A program made the translations under genes and the position numbers. Below the pieces are notes generated by a model. It made no database searches, had not been told where the DNA came from, and saw only the letters and a list, made by a program, of their open reading frames with translations. Positions 4,461-13,322 of a DNA stretch of 21,416 nucleotides are shown here, piece by piece. Each line of letters begins with the position of its first letter. Position 1 is the stretch's first letter. Source of the DNA: a virus; the IMG/VR virus record IMGVR_UViG_3300042539_000390, positions 1 through 21,416 of that record. One strand, given 5' to 3'.

Positions 4461-6608
4461 CTACGCAACCGCGAACTCTAGAAAGTTTCCACCAGCGATC
4501 CGACTATATTGCTGCAACACCTCAACAATTTGACGCCCAGCCTCAACACCATTCGTGCCGATACCTGTCGTGATATTGATGTTCGTACCTGCGCCACCTG
4601 TGGCAGATGTTCCGCCACCAGTAACAGTCGGTGTTGGGACCGCAGGCAACGAAGGAATGGTCAGATTGCGGTTCGGCATCGTTGCGGCAGCCTCAGCCAC
4701 CTTTGCGATCGCCTCAGCCAGATTCTCATACGCTTCAATCTCACGATCAAGCGCATCAGTCAAACGATCAGACGCTTCCTGCTGACGCTCCTTTGCATCA
4801 TTCAACTTCTCCAAGAAATCTTTGTAAGTTGTTGAGCCTTCAATCGCACCGCTCACCGCTTCGTTCAGAACAAGTTGTGCATCTTTGAGTTTGTTGGTTG
4901 CTTCAAACTCGGCATCGCTTGCATCGGCGACAGCCAACTTCGCTTGAGCCAAATCAATCTCTGCAAGACGAATCTCTTGAGGACTTGCTTCTGGGTCTTT
5001 GCGCAGGTCAGCAAGTTTCTTTTCAGCGTCACGAACTGCGAACACCGATTCCTCTACACGGAACCCAGCCTGTGCAACATTGCGTTGAGCCGCCGACAGT
5101 TCTCGCTGAGCCTTCTTCGCTTCATCCGAATCCGCACCATAACCACTGACCGCACGGTTGAACTTTTCTTGAGCGGTCGCAAGATCAGTGTTCGCCTCAT
5201 CCAAACCCTTTTGCGCTTGGATAGATGCCTTCTGTGCGGATGTAAATGACTTCTGTGCGGTTGTTGACGATTTCAAAGCAGAGGTGTACTTCTCCAACTT
5301 CTCTTTTGCTGTCTCAACAGTTTTCGCTACACCGCCACCAACTTTCTTTTGTTCTTCGTCTTCATCTGTTTTCTTTTTAGTAGCTCCTGCAACGCGTTCC
5401 AAAGCATCAGCAGTTCCGATAATTTTAGGTAACGCAGCAGCCTGAACCACAGCAGCCTTAGCGGCAGCCTCACGGAGTTTGTCAAACAACCCAGGTGTGC
5501 GCTCCAACGCTCCATTGATACCTTGTTGCGCCGCTTTGAACGCCAACGATGCTGCGGTTGCTTTCAAAGTCAATGCCACATTGCCGGTCAACGCACCAAC
5601 CAAAGACACCGTCAAGGCAATAGTCCGACCAATATCGACAAATTGTTTCAAGAACTCCAACACGCCGATGGTCATCTGTTCCAATGTGTCAACGAACGAC
5701 ACACCCATGTCACCCATTGAATCAATAGCAAAGCCGATTGCCATAACAACGCCGTGTTCGCCGATGTTGTCCGCGAACGCTTTGACCGCAGGCACGATAT
5801 TGTCGTTGATAAATGTCACAAACTTTGTAAACAACGGCAACAACAACTCACCCAAAGTTGTGACAATGTCATCGATCGATGCTCGAAGGATTCGTTGCTG
5901 GTTAGCCAACCCGCCAGAGGTTCTCTCGAAGTCACCTTGTGCATCCGTTGTTTGACGGAACAACAGTTCGGATGATGCAAGCACCTTTTGTTGTGCGGTC
6001 AATGCACCGTTGCCGTCATAGATGCCCATCTCAAGTGCGACTTGTTTTAATGCTGCATCGTTCATCAGAACACCGAATCGGCGGATCGGTTCGGCCTCTC
6101 CTCTTAGCGCAGCACCGAGGGCAAGAACCGCTTCTTCTGGTGAAGTGTTATTGAATGACGCCAAGTCGGTTGCGAGTGTCACGAACTTGGTTGAGAAGCC
6201 AGCGAGTTCTGTTCCAACCAAACCTGCTGACTTGCCGAAGGTACCGAAGGTGGCGGCAGCATCAAGTGCTTGTTGTCGAGTTTGACCTAATGCTCTGGCA
6301 GCGTTGTCGGCGAATGCTTGGACTGTTCGTGCTGCATCTCCGAAGATGACATTTGTTTTGGATATTGTTTCGTTGAGATCGGATGCCTTTTGTACTGCGA
6401 CGAATGATGCAGCTCCGACTGCGCCGATTGCCGCACCGGCGATGAATGCTGTTTTCTTTAGGACATCAAATGCACCGCCAATGGCATTGCCAACGGTCTG
6501 AAGTTGGCCGAGTGTTCGTTGTCCTTCACGACCAAGTTTCTTGAACGCCGTGACAGCACCGTCGGCGTTGCCGAGAATCTTTACAACGAATGTGCGTTCA
6601 CCTGCCAT
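4461..6608 (-). CDS. tape measure protein
   Basis: 715 residues. The N-terminus MAGERTFVVKILGNADGAVTAFKKLG is typical for tape measures. A Gly/Ala-rich hydrophobic segment lies at about residues 52-72 (KTAFIAGAAIGAVGAASFVAV). Residues about 90-260 contain the conserved tape-measure block (LGQTRQQALDAAATFGTFGKSAGL ... GALRGEAEPIRRFGV). Further hydrophobic helices lie near 290-370. From about 405 to 640 there is a long Lys/Glu/Ala-rich coiled coil (TAQKSFTSAQKASIQAQKG, EKLNDAKERQQEASDRL). The last 70 residues are Thr/Gly-rich. At about 0.15 nm per residue this predicts a tail of roughly 100 nm. The ribosome site is weak (GAGTAG-like). It follows the primase-like gene by 16 nt. Confidence 0.93.
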   Translation of the reverse strand: MAGERTFVVKILGNADGAVTAFKKLGREGQRTLGQLQTVGNAIGGAFDVLKKTAFIAGAAIGAVGAASFVAVQKASDLNETISKTNVIFGDAARTVQAFADNAARALGQTRQQALDAAATFGTFGKSAGLVGTELAGFSTKFVTLATDLASFNNTSPEEAVLALGAALRGEAEPIRRFGVLMNDAALKQVALEMGIYDGNGALTAQQKVLASSELLFRQTTDAQGDFERTSGGLANQQRILRASIDDIVTTLGELLLPLFTKFVTFINDNIVPAVKAFADNIGEHGVVMAIGFAIDSMGDMGVSFVDTLEQMTIGVLEFLKQFVDIGRTIALTVSLVGALTGNVALTLKATAASLAFKAAQQGINGALERTPGLFDKLREAAAKAAVVQAAALPKIIGTADALERVAGATKKKTDEDEEQKKVGGGVAKTVETAKEKLEKYTSALKSSTTAQKSFTSAQKASIQAQKGLDEANTDLATAQEKFNRAVSGYGADSDEAKKAQRELSAAQRNVAQAGFRVEESVFAVRDAEKKLADLRKDPEASPQEIRLAEIDLAQAKLAVADASDAEFEATNKLKDAQLVLNEAVSGAIEGSTTYKDFLEKLNDAKERQQEASDRLTDALDREIEAYENLAEAIAKVAEAAATMPNRNLTIPSLPAVPTPTVTGGGTSATGGAGTNINITTGIGTNGVEAGRQIVEVLQQYSRIAGGNFLEFAVA

Positions 6609-6624: not shown

Positions 6625-7338
6625 TCAGTTAGCAGCCATCCGTTTACGCAGCTCAGCCCACTCACGTTGCATGTCTTTATGTATCTCCGCTTGCGTCATG
6701 CCTTTGTACTCTGACAAATCGATTGGTGCATCCCACCACTTCGGGTCAAGAACACATCGCATCGGATTACCACGACGCGGCTGACGAGTCGAGCGAATGC
6801 TCGGTGTAGAGAACGTGCGTGTCGGTGTTGCAATGTCGGTGATCGTCGGGTCAAGGAATCGCCAACCTGAATGATGCGTATGAAACGGTTGACCAGCCTC
6901 ATGCTGTGGTAGGTAGAAGATGCGGGCTGGGTCTTTGGTGGCTGGGTCGCCTTTGAGACGAAGACGCTCATGTGTCTCATACCAGACTTCTTCCCAATTC
7001 TGTACCGGCACAGCCTGCTCGAATGGAACGACAACGTGCCAGTGTGGATCGTTGTCACGATGCGACCAGGTTGTGTATGCAAAGTGTATATACGATCCGA
7101 GATCAGCCTGCTCGAATGCTTCGCCGTCAAGGTCGGCGACTAATGCCCAAACATGTGACACGTTGCGATTGCCACGGGTTGTGTATTCACGATATGTGAC
7201 TGGCGAGTACAACTTGCCATGAGACTTCTGTTTGCGTTCTTGATGGTCGCCGAGTATTGCGGCGAAGTCCATCCAAGATGTTGCGATGGTCTTTGGATAG
7301 ACAGATTTGACGGACGGGAACCCGACGACTTCAAACAT
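6625..7338 (-). CDS. AEP primase-like protein inside the tail module
   Basis: 237 residues. Residues about 60-145 match the palm pattern of archaeo-eukaryotic-type primases found at the start of phage and plasmid primase-helicase proteins: VWALVADLDG (D69 and D71 as the metal-binding DxD), FAYTTWSHR (S92-H93), PHWHVVVPF, and KDPARIFYLPQ (D136, R139). There is no helicase or ATPase domain, and the remaining 90 residues are basic with a C-terminal helix (DMQREWAELRKRM). The start is supported by AGGAGG 9 nt upstream of the ATG. A hairpin lies just before that site. Replication genes are not expected between a tail protein and the tape measure, so it may be an inserted gene with its own role. 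Family assignment is from motif reading, not from a search. It could be a catalytically drifted nucleotidyltransferase. Confidence 0.6.
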   Translation of the reverse strand: MFEVVGFPSVKSVYPKTIATSWMDFAAILGDHQERKQKSHGKLYSPVTYREYTTRGNRNVSHVWALVADLDGEAFEQADLGSYIHFAYTTWSHRDNDPHWHVVVPFEQAVPVQNWEEVWYETHERLRLKGDPATKDPARIFYLPQHEAGQPFHTHHSGWRFLDPTITDIATPTRTFSTPSIRSTRQPRRGNPMRCVLDPKWWDAPIDLSEYKGMTQAEIHKDMQREWAELRKRMAAN

Positions 7339-7941: not shown

Positions 7942-8357
7942 CTAGATCCTTTGTGGTGGGTTGGATTTGACGCTCTTCCAGCGCAGATAGCCGAGCATTG
8001 TGTACAGCATTCTAGGTGATTCTTGTAGAAGTAAAGATGGAGCGATGTGAGTCTCACACGCTAGGTATGCGATCAGCCAGTGGGCTGATTGTTCTCCAAA
8101 GGGACGATCACCGCAGAGTCGGTTCCAACCTCCACACTCTCAACTGTTTCAATCCATTCTTCGAACTTCATCGCGGTCTTCTTCGTGCGCTTCGTTGCAT
8201 GCCAAGCCAACCAGGCAAGATCGGTGAGGCGTAGTTCTGTTTGGAAGTTCGCAACCGAACGATTCTTCTCGCCTTCGAAGGCGATGAAGTCGGCGAACTG
8301 TGCGGTCACTTTTGTGGTGACGTTGTCTAGCGTCGTCACTTCTAGGTTGATTTTCAT
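7942..8357 (-). CDS. tail assembly chaperone, -1 frameshift product (G-T)
   Basis: The long form of the chaperone, made by a -1 slip at CCCTTTG (8097-8103). The first 87 residues are those of the short form. The next 51 residues are read in the -1 frame to a TAG at 7942-7944, giving about 138 residues. The extension reads GEQSAHWLIAYLACETHIAP and then SLLLQESPRMLYTMLGYLRW, which is the helical pattern (HWL.A.L....IAPS.LL.E.PRML.TM) of the T part of actinophage chaperones. In siphophages the G and G-T proteins bind the tape measure and recruit the tail tube protein in a fixed ratio. The frame is open only because of the slip; it has no start codon of its own with a ribosome site. The reconstruction is from the sequence, and the frameshift efficiency is unknown. 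Confidence 0.8.
8072..8089 (-). promoter_or_regulatory. frameshift-stimulating hairpin
   Basis: On the minus strand ATCAGCC and GGCTGAT pair over 7 bp with a CACT loop. The stem begins 7 nt after the heptamer CCCTTTG, the spacing typical for -1 frameshift stimulators, and contains the stop codon of the short chaperone. Confidence 0.75.
8073..8357 (-). CDS. tail assembly chaperone, short form (G)
   Basis: 94 residues, between the major tail protein and the tape-measure region, the standard place for a tail assembly chaperone. AGGAGG lies 5 nt before the ATG. The sequence has an N-terminal beta part (MKINLEVTTLDNVTTKVTAQ), then FADFIAFE, a helical LAWLAWHATKRT and FEEWIETVESVEV, the usual G-protein pattern in actinophages. 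Its stop codon TGA (8073-8075) lies within the stem of the hairpin that follows the slippery heptamer, so most ribosomes end here and a fraction continue into the -1 frame. Confidence 0.85.
   Translation of the reverse strand: MKINLEVTTLDNVTTKVTAQFADFIAFEGEKNRSVANFQTELRLTDLAWLAWHATKRTKKTAMKFEEWIETVESVEVGTDSAVIVPLENNQPTG
8097..8103 (-). promoter_or_regulatory. -1 slippery heptamer CCCTTTG
   Basis: In the chaperone frame the codons are GTC CCT TTG, giving C CCT TTG, which fits the X XXY YYZ rule (CCC, TTT, G). A slip re-pairs both tRNAs on CCC and TTT and continues at GGA into the open -1 frame. Confidence 0.8.
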
Positions 8358-8385: not shown

Positions 8386-8799
8386 TTATGCACCTGTTGA
8401 TTTGGTGATTGTTCCGCTGATCGGCCAAGTTACATCGGCTGTGTTCAATTCACCGACAGCACCGTTGACTGGGCTGAACTCTGTGCAAAGCACAGAGAAG
8501 GTGTAATGCGGTGTTGCTGATCCTGCTGCGGCTGTGCCTGCTGGTTTCACAACCATCGTGACAGCGGTCGAACCGATCAATGGCATGATGAGTCCGTCGA
8601 TGGCGTTGTAGTCGTTGTGCAACGAGAGTGTCACCGAGTTGTCAATCAATCCTGAGACGCGAGTTACTGCACCACCTGAACCGAAGTTTGTTGTTGGTAC
8701 TTCGGCAGCCGAAGTTGACAGAGTTACTGCTGCAACGCTTGATGTGATATCGGTGCCGTTCAGAACTACGTTTGAGTTTGTGAGAACTAACTTTGCCAT
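8386..8799 (-). CDS. major tail (tube) protein
   Basis: 137 residues, beta-rich, starting MAKLVLTNSNVVLNGTDIT. The start VVLNGTDITSSVAAVTLSTSAAEV resembles the 'ING.dls..v..v.l....d.ve.T.fg' opening of tail tube proteins. The middle contains SLHNDYNAIDGLIMPLIGSTAVTMVVKP and then TFSVLCTEFSPVNGAVGELNTADVTWPI, matching the tube-protein pattern of substrate strands followed by a final T.....sG segment. It lies between the tail terminator / small Lys-tailed gene and the tail chaperone, as expected. The ribosome site GGAG is 11 nt upstream of the ATG, inside the end of the preceding gene. It should be the most abundant tail protein. Confidence 0.85.
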   Translation of the reverse strand: MAKLVLTNSNVVLNGTDITSSVAAVTLSTSAAEVPTTNFGSGGAVTRVSGLIDNSVTLSLHNDYNAIDGLIMPLIGSTAVTMVVKPAGTAAAGSATPHYTFSVLCTEFSPVNGAVGELNTADVTWPISGTITKSTGA

Positions 8800-10013: not shown

Positions 10014-10658
10014 CTATTCTACTTCACGGTCTGAACGAGTGTACTCGGCGATGAACTTGTACATCTCAATATCGGCTTCAACATTTGTATCCGATGAGAG
10101 ACGGTTCAGTCGAATATCGTTGACCAACACTTGAACACCTGCCGGCTTGAACCATCTTGCACCATGCACATGACACTTCCACCAGAACGCCCAATCCGAC
10201 CAATGAACCGAAGGATAGCCACCAGTCCGAGTCCAGATATCTTTTGTGAACCAAGAGGTACCCATCACATGATTGCGCATCGGTTCAGTGTTAAACAGTT
10301 CAGGCGCAGAAGGATTCACCCCACCATGCGACTTGAACCTGATCGTGTTCGCAACAACATCAAAGTCGTCTTCTGGTAAACAAGCAAACGCATCAGGATA
10401 GAACCTGTCATCTATCCCAAGACCCGCAATCCAACCTTCTTTGATAGTCGCGATCGCCGCATGGTACATCGCATCACAGGTTCGAGTCCGACATTCAACA
10501 AGTCGACACGGTAAGTCAAGCGCACCACAATCATCGTCAGGATGATAAGCGACCACGATGTCATCAGCCGGTGGGTTCAAAGCCTGGACAGAATCCCACC
10601 AACCTTGAACTTCATTCTTGTACGCAGTACCCCACAAGAATCCGACAACAGTGATCAT
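10014..10658 (-). CDS. GT-A-type glycosyltransferase-like protein
   Basis: 214 residues from the ATG at 10658, which overlaps the preceding stop by 4 nt (ATGA); an upstream in-frame start at 10673 would extend into that gene. Opening MITVVGFLWGTAYKNEVQGWW, then a Rossmann-like alternation and a candidate metal/nucleotide-binding segment GLGIDDRFYPDAF (D83, D84), matching the DxD region of GT-A enzymes. Around residues 125-165 there is NHVMGTSWFTKDIWTRTGGYPSVHWSDWAFWW, the 'G....f....(G)Gyp....eD..l' acceptor-site pattern seen in family 2 enzymes. It is the last gene of the island, before the head-tail adaptor. The donor and acceptor cannot be read from sequence. Confidence 0.65.
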   Translation of the reverse strand: MITVVGFLWGTAYKNEVQGWWDSVQALNPPADDIVVAYHPDDDCGALDLPCRLVECRTRTCDAMYHAAIATIKEGWIAGLGIDDRFYPDAFACLPEDDFDVVANTIRFKSHGGVNPSAPELFNTEPMRNHVMGTSWFTKDIWTRTGGYPSVHWSDWAFWWKCHVHGARWFKPAGVQVLVNDIRLNRLSSDTNVEADIEMYKFIAEYTRSDREVE

Positions 10659-11389
10659 CGTCTGAGATACCAAGACTCTGGTGCTAGACCTTCTCGAATG
10701 TAGGCAGGATAGTAATCGTCTATCTCAACTTCCCACAATGTTTCACCGCGTATCGAACGACCGATTCGATAGTTCTCGGCCATGAATCGTTCAGGGTCAT
10801 CGACCATGAGTTCTTGGTGAGAGAACGAGCGCATCTTGTTCGCAGCCCATTCGGGTCCACCCATCCACGACACATGCCAACCTGATCTCAGATTCGGTAG
10901 CCGTTCACGGTTTGAGCGCATGTGTTGCGCACCACCACCGCGTTGACCGTATGGTCCTGCGACCATCGTGTGTTCATCTGTAAGACGCCAATACGCGGAC
11001 ATCACGAGACGCTTCATGATGTAACCATGCCAACCTTGTTTCAATGTGTCGATGTCGGCTGGGTTCCATATCTCGTCACAGTCTGCGACCGTCACAATGT
11101 CTTGCGCTTCTGGTGCGAACTGTTGCAATGCAATAAACAAATGATTGCGTTGTGCGTGTTCAGCCGCCCAGCCAAGTTCATGCGGGTTCGGTTCAAATGT
11201 TTCGTAGTGGATCTTGTCTCGCCACTTGTACAGCCGGTCAAGGTCAATGCCGTGCGGTTTGGGTTGACCCATGAAAGTTGTAGACGACTCAACAATGATG
11301 AACAGATCAACTACTTCGCTCAACTCCCACAATCGACATTCGAGCATGTCATGTTCTTGGTTGAACAAGATGCAGTCGAAGATTCTCAT
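10655..11389 (-). CDS. glycosyltransferase family 17-like protein
   Basis: 244 residues from ATG 11389, which shares one base with the preceding stop (TGATG); the longer reading frame to 11428 would overlap that gene. Sequence MRIFDCILFNQEHDMLECRL and VVDLFIIVESSTTFMGQPKP is the GT17 pattern (f.fn.E.d.Le.Rl.el...VD.Fii.Es..tf.g..K). The acidic motif VADCDEIWNP (residues 101-110) fits the metal-binding site, and GWHVSWMGGPEWAANKMRSFSHQEL matches the conserved end block. The family is known from beta-1,4-N-acetylglucosaminyl transfer in animals, but bacterial and phage members have unproven substrates. It is part of the four-enzyme island. Confidence 0.8.
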   Translation of the reverse strand: MRIFDCILFNQEHDMLECRLWELSEVVDLFIIVESSTTFMGQPKPHGIDLDRLYKWRDKIHYETFEPNPHELGWAAEHAQRNHLFIALQQFAPEAQDIVTVADCDEIWNPADIDTLKQGWHGYIMKRLVMSAYWRLTDEHTMVAGPYGQRGGGAQHMRSNRERLPNLRSGWHVSWMGGPEWAANKMRSFSHQELMVDDPERFMAENYRIGRSIRGETLWEVEIDDYYPAYIREGLAPESWYLRR

Positions 11390-12042
11390 CAATCCCAACT
11401 GAGATCTAGTCGGCGTTGCAGATCCCACTGACCTGCGTCAAGTCTTGCGTTGCGAAGTTTGAACAACTCCAGATTTGATGCGAAGGTTTGCGAGTTCTTA
11501 CCTTGGAATGAGACATCGGACAGAAGTGTTGACGAGTTGTCATGCACGATCATGTCTTGAGATTTGCGAATCGTTTTGCCGAGACGCACAGCGCGACGCT
11601 CATAGTCGTTGTCTTCGAAGTACGCGGGATGGAACGCTTCGCAGAACAGGCCGACATCTTTGACTACATCGCAGCCGATCCATGCGCAAGCCCACTCTGG
11701 TGAACCTGTGAGATGAATCTCGTTTGGATAGCACGACTCCCAGAACTGTTCAAGTTTGTCTGGCATGAACCAGGCGTCTGAGTTCATGAGAATCCAACCA
11801 GATGCGAACGGTGTCATCTTGATGCCAAGATTCCAAGAAGTCGCAACACCCAGATTGCTTGGCATGTCCAAGATGTATGTCTTGCCGTGCCGACTGTGGC
11901 GTGGCATGATCAAACAATCTTCTTCAATCTTGCCTCCGTTGTCGATGACAATGATGTTGTCAACTGGGAAGTCGAGCGAATCTATGCAGCGTTCAAGTAG
12001 GTCGTATCGGTTTAAGACTGGGATGATTACGACCGGCACCAT
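11389..12042 (-). CDS. glycosyltransferase family 2-like protein
   Basis: 217 residues from ATG 12042, supported by AGGAG 8 nt upstream; an earlier in-frame start at 12072 would lie deep in the preceding gene. N-terminus MVPVVIIPVLNRYDLLERCIDSL is the first strand and helix of a GT2 enzyme, followed by NIIVIDNGG (residues 29-37), SNLGVATSWNLGI, and ILMNSDAWF with N-S-D (87-89) at the DxD place. The acceptor region holds SPEWACAWIGCDVVKDVGLFCEAFHPAYFEDNDYERR, with ED.DYE.R the usual catalytic pattern. It overlaps the GT4 gene by 16 nt and so is translated with it. It may transfer a hexose to a protein or to a glycan begun by a neighbour. Confidence 0.8.
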   Translation of the reverse strand: MVPVVIIPVLNRYDLLERCIDSLDFPVDNIIVIDNGGKIEEDCLIMPRHSRHGKTYILDMPSNLGVATSWNLGIKMTPFASGWILMNSDAWFMPDKLEQFWESCYPNEIHLTGSPEWACAWIGCDVVKDVGLFCEAFHPAYFEDNDYERRAVRLGKTIRKSQDMIVHDNSSTLLSDVSFQGKNSQTFASNLELFKLRNARLDAGQWDLQRRLDLSWD

Positions 12043-13322
12043 GTAGACAACTCCTTCATCGCAGGCTTCCAATACTGCTCAAATACAGCGTCGGCTCCGT
12101 ACCCTAGGGCATGGGTGATTGCGTCCTGAGAACGGCTCCTAGGCGCGTTATAGGCCGACTTGAGGGCATTGACGATGTCAGGCACAGACGGTGTGAAGAA
12201 CCATGACTTCTGTGCCGCATCCCACCACGGCTGACCCTCAACCGTCCAGCCGTCACCGACCAGCTCAGGTTGCGCCGTGAAGTTGCTGACGATCACTCGA
12301 CACCCACAACTTTGAGCTTCAATGACGGGTATTCCGAACCCTTCGCCCATACTGCAAGCAAGAAGAACATCGGACGCCGTGTACATCGCAGCCATCACAT
12401 TCTGTGGAATACCATGCCGATACGCATACTGGTCAACGACCTTGTACTTGTCTGCCGATATACCGACCGCATCCATCAATGTCGGCAAACTGATACCAGA
12501 CATCGCACCATCAGGTTCCGTGTACAAATACAAAACCGCATCAGGATGATCTTTGGCAAAGATTGAGAACGCAAGAATGTTTTCAGCCCACGCCTTACGG
12601 GCAGGCTGATTGCCTTTGTTCGTCGCAACCATCGACACAACAAATCTGTCTTCTTCCCAGCCCATGAACTCTCGACCAGTCATTTTCCCGCCATTCTGCA
12701 AAGCAACCGATTCGGTTGGTTGGAACACAGATTCGATTGCGTGAGGAACATACAGATGCTCAACTCCTGCAACATCTAACATTCGTGAACCAAACTTTGA
12801 CATTGCGATCGGTCTTACATTTGGACGCGCACACCATTGCAAAACATCTGGCGGTGTTGGCTGATGATCAATCGGAACCCACGACGCGATATTCTTCCAA
12901 TCTTTCAACGACTCAGATTTCAACACCCACACATCAAACAATGTCATCATCAAAGTCGGCGTCGACAGATCTTGACTTGCCCATTCCGTTGTATGAGCAA
13001 CAAGTACATCGTCACTGTATGCGGCGAGTCCTTGTGGGTAGACCTTGAATCCGTTCCATGTTGATGACGAACCCGCAAGTCCGTACATTGCGTGGATTGC
13101 TATTTGGTGGTTTTCTTTCGCGAGCCTTTGGATGACTTGCGCGGTTTGCTGACCGTATCCTGTTGCTGCCCAAGGTGCGTTGCTATACCAGAGGATTCTG
13201 AGTCGGTCGGGATTGGCTGGTCGGACACTTCCAAGTAGTGCGCCGCGCCCGCTCGGACTAATCGTTCCGCCAACGCTCCTGGCATCTCGACTGGTATGCC
13301 TTTGACGATTACTGTTTGCCAC
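12027..13322 (-). CDS. GT4-like (GT-B) glycosyltransferase
   Basis: 431 residues from a GTG at 13322. The enzyme core begins at about residue 39 with DRLRILWYSNAPWAATGYGQQT, the usual start of GT4-like enzymes that act without a leader. The C-terminal half has GEGFGIPVIEAQSCGCRVIVSN (residues 326-347), the E-x7-E nucleotide-sugar motif (E327, E335). Residues 1-38 look non-functional and are read in the frame overlapping the 74-residue protein. No ATG, GTG or TTG lies in frame between 13322 and residue 39, so either the GTG is used or a rare start codon is. Substrates are unknown. It leads the glycosyltransferase island. Confidence 0.8.
   Translation of the reverse strand: MANSNRQRHTSRDARSVGGTISPSGRGALLGSVRPANPDRLRILWYSNAPWAATGYGQQTAQVIQRLAKENHQIAIHAMYGLAGSSSTWNGFKVYPQGLAAYSDDVLVAHTTEWASQDLSTPTLMMTLFDVWVLKSESLKDWKNIASWVPIDHQPTPPDVLQWCARPNVRPIAMSKFGSRMLDVAGVEHLYVPHAIESVFQPTESVALQNGGKMTGREFMGWEEDRFVVSMVATNKGNQPARKAWAENILAFSIFAKDHPDAVLYLYTEPDGAMSGISLPTLMDAVGISADKYKVVDQYAYRHGIPQNVMAAMYTASDVLLACSMGEGFGIPVIEAQSCGCRVIVSNFTAQPELVGDGWTVEGQPWWDAAQKSWFFTPSVPDIVNALKSAYNAPRSRSQDAITHALGYGADAVFEQYWKPAMKELSTWCRS

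Follow-up and report, generated by a model that had tools for sequence, protein, structure and literature searches.

A probable -1 frameshift on C CCU UUG in the putative tail assembly chaperone gene of a freshwater-type siphophage

The DNA analysed here, called the window, is the whole 21,416-nucleotide stretch of the IMG/VR virus record IMGVR_UViG_3300042539_000390, and its structural genes are all located on the minus strand. The major tail protein gene is followed by a short open reading frame, G, with a predicted -1 extension, T (jointly GT), then by two genes and by the tape measure gene. In this order the putative G/GT gene has the position expected of it, while the two genes that separate it from the tape measure gene count against it, the usual arrangement being adjacency. 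The next gene starts directly at the stop codon of T. Between the chaperone and tape measure genes, at 6625-7338 (minus strand), we noticed a phage DNA primase-like gene (part; phrog_9765, E=1.5e-13), an odd location for a replication gene. The features of the locus are as follows.

8386..8799, minus strand: major tail protein gene (phrog_4574, E=2e-17), upstream of G
8357-8073, minus strand: G gene, short form, 94 aa, an open reading frame ending at TGA 8075-8073
8106-8112, minus strand: GGTGATC, complementary to the 3' end region of 16S rRNA, a candidate SD-like stimulator
8103-8097, minus strand: slippery heptamer C CCT TTG (C_CC.U_UU.G), in the zero-frame register of G
8096-8090, minus strand: spacer GAGAACA, 7 nt, inside which the T part begins; coding in both frames
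8089-8072, minus strand: hairpin of 7 bp, candidate stimulator, containing the zero-frame TGA
8089-8083, minus strand: hairpin stem, 5' arm, ATCAGCC
8082-8079, minus strand: hairpin loop, CACT
8078-8072, minus strand: hairpin stem, 3' arm, GGCTGAT, carrying TGA 8075-8073
7942..8097, minus strand: T part, -1 frame, 51 codons, GEQSAHWLIAYLACETHIAPSLLLQESPRMLYTMLGYLRWKSVKSNPPQRI, with the stop TAG at 7944-7942
4461..6608, minus strand: tape measure gene (phrog_7025, tail length tape measure, E=6.8e-19), downstream of G

The 3' end of G reads GTC CCT TTG GAG AAC AAT CAG CCC ACT GGC TGA, and conceptual translation across the heptamer gives a -1 fusion, GT, of 138 aa. The original prediction had placed at 8072-8103 a heptamer, a 7-nt spacer and a 7-bp hairpin holding the zero-frame stop. 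Each of these elements is present as claimed and the coordinates are right, the strand, which had been left unnamed, being the minus one. The length of 51 codons given there for the open -1 frame is exact, up to the TAG at 7944-7942.

When G was resampled synonymously according to the codon usage of the window, 3.0% of trials placed some in-register X_XXY_YYZ heptamer in the usable stretch; the 6762 codons of the window's genes contain only 7 of them. This chance figure alone is modest, and it is conservation that decides. CCCTTTG was found in all 74 distinct close relatives from IMG/VR, in 49/49 distinct loci collected with a T-part query, and in each of 91 distinct homologous contigs recovered with a DNA pattern for SAHWLIAY, which lies wholly downstream of the heptamer, so that this search was not conditioned on it. 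The pattern returned 92 distinct sequences, and the one exception among them (L302, TTTTTCT) was a chance match and not a homologue. Because of overlap between the three sets and relatedness of their sequences, they do not count as independent trials; in the joint set of 101 distinct relatives the heptamer is present in 101. In the comparison of related phages proposed with the original prediction, CCCTTTG and the open -1 frame are kept without exception in this group, which supports the reading as a frameshift.

Proline is encoded by CCT and leucine by TTG in every one of the 101 relatives. The slipped codons CCC and TTT are not themselves decoded, so both CCT and TTG are free to vary synonymously. 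The codon preceding CCT encodes V, N, A or L, and its final base is nevertheless always C. For the stretch of six zero-frame codons that closes with the heptamer, pS equals 0.054, compared with 0.444 upstream. In E. coli C_CC.U_UU.G was one of 18 motifs giving more than 0.10% frameshifting without a stimulator, and it was not among the strongest slippery motifs of that study (PMC4066793); by analogy, the motif may be similarly slippery in the host of this phage. Our literature search returned no paper linking CCCTTT to a tail assembly chaperone frameshift.

Past the zero-frame stop the T frame has pN of 0.092 and pS of 0.518 among the 101 relatives (pN/pS 0.177) and is under purifying selection. 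Over 36 codons it carries a stop in none of the relatives, in comparison to 61 and 100 of them for the other two frames. A sequencing or assembly error, or a decayed gene, would explain the broken frame itself and nothing beyond it. This explanation, to which we assign practically no probability, is refuted by selection on both frames and by recurrence of the arrangement in more than 100 distinct sequences, which come from many metagenomes.

If T were a separate protein produced without frameshifting, at a start codon of its own or through re-initiation following G, this would agree with those annotations that give two chaperone genes (genes 10 and 11 of MooKitty). In the window, however, the ATG/GTG/TTG codons of the T frame occur only deep inside T, at RML and TML, and in 97/101 relatives no such codon is present between the upstream stop of this frame and the conserved SAHW. 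Independent initiation would also leave the strict conservation of the heptamer unexplained, and we rejected it as very unlikely. The shift could also be ascribed to slippage of RNA polymerase and not of the ribosome, which the A7 runs of more distant lineages could allow. CCCTTTG, on the other hand, contains no run longer than three, and we know of no transcriptional slippage on runs that short; at this heptamer the possibility is negligible and was rejected.

It is almost certain, as judged from the sequence, that the site belongs to the G/GT tail assembly chaperone gene of a siphophage and directs a -1 frameshift on C CCU UUG. The freshwater-type phage, which probably infects actinobacteria, would thus very probably make two forms of a tail-assembly helper protein from one gene. 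We infer frameshifting itself and the chaperone role from the site, its register, its conservation, selection on T, the lack of a T start and gene order. Most ribosomes would decode C CCU UUG without shifting and terminate at UGA, releasing G (94 aa). A minority would slip back by one base, with re-pairing of the proline tRNA (CCU to CCC) and of the leucine tRNA (UUG to UUU), and would synthesize GT (138 aa) with the predicted junction peptide ...VIVPL-GEQSAHW... (VIVPLGEQSAHW). If roles are as in lambda, the tape measure protein would be bound by G, with major tail protein being brought in through the T part of GT. A G/GT -1 frameshift is an ordinary and widely conserved phage trick, usually missed by annotators.

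The lambda G/GT frameshift was reportedly described by Levin in 1993 and by Xu in 2004 and 2013. The window resembles it in having a short G reading frame that neighbours the tail tube and tape measure genes and, close to the end of G, an X_XXY_YYZ heptamer for a -1 shift into the T reading frame. The two differ in the heptamer, which is GGGAAAG in lambda and CCCUUUG in the window, and in the two genes that lie between GT and tape measure here. In lambda the longer G-T fusion is the minor product, while GT of the window is a predicted one. The likeness between the two G proteins is one of architecture, without an established sequence relation. The biology of lambda G/GT has been reviewed (PMC5009743).

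G itself belongs to phrog_6889 (function unknown; E=1.5e-6), a family matched by 24 of 48 relatives. For G no meaningful match came from Pfam or NCBIfam, and nothing convincing from PDB by sequence, Foldseek or VIA-align. The AlphaFold model of G (pLDDT 81) has good matches to uncharacterised phage proteins and weak ones, with E of 0.2 to 0.3, to proteins annotated as tail assembly chaperones. The T part reads, as had been proposed, like that of known actinophages: it resembles the -1 frame part at the chaperone loci of Schiebs, MooKitty and SerialPhiller, located beside major tail and tape measure genes. The matches of T and G to actinophage chaperones are weak, and those chaperones are named by annotation only. 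The assignment of G as a chaperone therefore follows from gene order, the G/GT architecture and the similarity of T, and not from a proven homologue.

The compact hairpin has a less certain role. The 74-nt stretch beginning at the heptamer folds with -20.6 kcal/mol (z = -3.0 against dinucleotide shuffles), and the 7-nt spacing falls within the usual range of 5-8 nt (PMC4066793). Among the 101 relatives 7 pairs are kept in 39, 6 in 59 and 5 in 3, so that at least 5 of 7 are retained in every one. It is about an even chance that frameshifting is real and the hairpin arises as a by-product where the two coding frames overlap, without stimulating slippage. Recodings of the region were as stable as the native one in 9% of cases when only T was kept and in 36% when both proteins were kept, and the SAHW of T (TCN GCN CAY TGG) fixes much of both hairpin arms. 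The outermost pair is lost in 61/101 relatives and an inner pair in a few. In a 17-sequence alignment we found one change on both sides in 119 cells, at one pair and coming from a distant relative. In addition, where an AAAAAAA heptamer lies about 12 nt further upstream, a hairpin at SAHW would fall outside the working distance. Against the by-product explanation stand the spacing and the pairs retained, as well as the use of CTG, with its paired C, over TTG in 94/101 relatives at a site free in both frames, although the genes prefer TTG; this choice keeps a G-C pair and is a slight hint for the stem. With 36% of dual-synonymous recodings as stable and a single both-sides change, the data do not reveal a stem beyond coding need with compensatory changes, and the compact hairpin of the original description is not supported as a demonstrated working part, its stability being explicable by overlapping coding. 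Within the frameshifting that we favour, the hairpin may help.

Two nucleotides upstream of the heptamer lies GGTGATC, which is kept in 78/101 relatives and absent in the other lineages. Its duplex with 16S rRNA amounts to -12.5 kcal/mol, a value that 0.3% of the in-frame 20-nt stretches in the window's genes attain, and position -6 holds a G in every one of the 101 relatives although the amino acid changes. The signal was noticed after several looks at the data. Outside those 78 relatives it is weak or absent, and as an upstream SD-like stimulator of the dnaX type GGTGATC is a lead only.

Beyond the CCCTTTG group, Pontimonas phage phiPsal1 and about 50 further contigs share the T part (GDSSAHW...), down to about 50% identity, and its -1 register. 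In place of CCCTTTG these relatives (L232-L282, L082) carry AAAAAAA 15-21 nt or CCCAAAA 18-21 nt before the T start, and in many of the lineages with A7 the heptamer runs straight into the zero-frame stop. Since distant relatives without CCCTTTG possess other in-register X_XXY_YYZ heptamers nearby, they support frameshifting and do not refute it. In L237, of the phiPsal1 group, there is no in-register heptamer, and just after the A run it has one base fewer than its near twin L238, likely through a sequencing error or mutation.

The G and T of phiPsal1 (MG835450, genes 016/017 region) are homologous to those of the window, with GT 46% identical, the same -1 register and the same place after the tail tube gene. 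Unlike the window, phiPsal1 has A AAA AAA directly before a zero-frame TAA, about 12 nt further upstream. The annotated start of its gene 017 (L082:6344-6997) overlaps the unannotated T frame, in another frame. EBPR siphovirus 6 (JF412301, gp13 region) carries CCCTTTG at the identical place, a T part 47% identical and, as in the window, a zero-frame stop at a similar distance beyond the heptamer; in contrast to the window, pairing of the hairpin is limited to its inner part. The expectation that annotation would miss the site is borne out in both phages, where G is called hypothetical, T is unannotated and no joined T has been deposited.

In Gordonia phages Schiebs and Emperor and Arthrobacter phages MooKitty and SerialPhiller, T-like sequence occurs in the -1 frame after an annotated chaperone G. 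Three of these four small actinophages are without an in-register X_XXY_YYZ heptamer and SerialPhiller has AAACCCT; their chaperone was deposited as separate genes or without T. SerialPhiller, Emperor and Schiebs have a common CCCTAC stretch near the junction. The same -1 T part across lineages with differing or no classical heptamer suggests that the fusion is probably older than any particular slippery site. Further searches gave no confirmed relative among genome contigs (T-part query), no relative in viral contigs with GT of EBPR siphovirus 6 as the query, mostly already-known loci with an aligned three-protein query, and no match for the region in named phages at the nucleotide level.

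A broader proposal, which we consider rather improbable, would combine these observations: GGTGATC and the compact hairpin would form a two-sided signal jointly setting the G:GT ratio at a heptamer devoid of a strongly slippery lysine codon, and the lineage would swap CCCTTTG, AAAAAAA and CCCAAAA at shifted positions with the same fusion kept.

The frameshift on C CCU UUG, as predicted here, would assign a likely function, and a second product of full length, to the phrog_6889 gene in more than 100 environmental contigs, and the same assignment would extend to phiPsal1 and EBPR siphovirus 6. For predictors such as PRFect it is useful to see one frameshift persist through changes of its slippery site. 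The finding leaves our understanding of tail assembly as it was.

Elsewhere in the window, between the capsid and head-tail genes (10014-13322, minus strand), we noticed a gene block that looks glycosyltransferase-like by eye, and phiPsal1 has annotated glycosyltransferases at the matching place.
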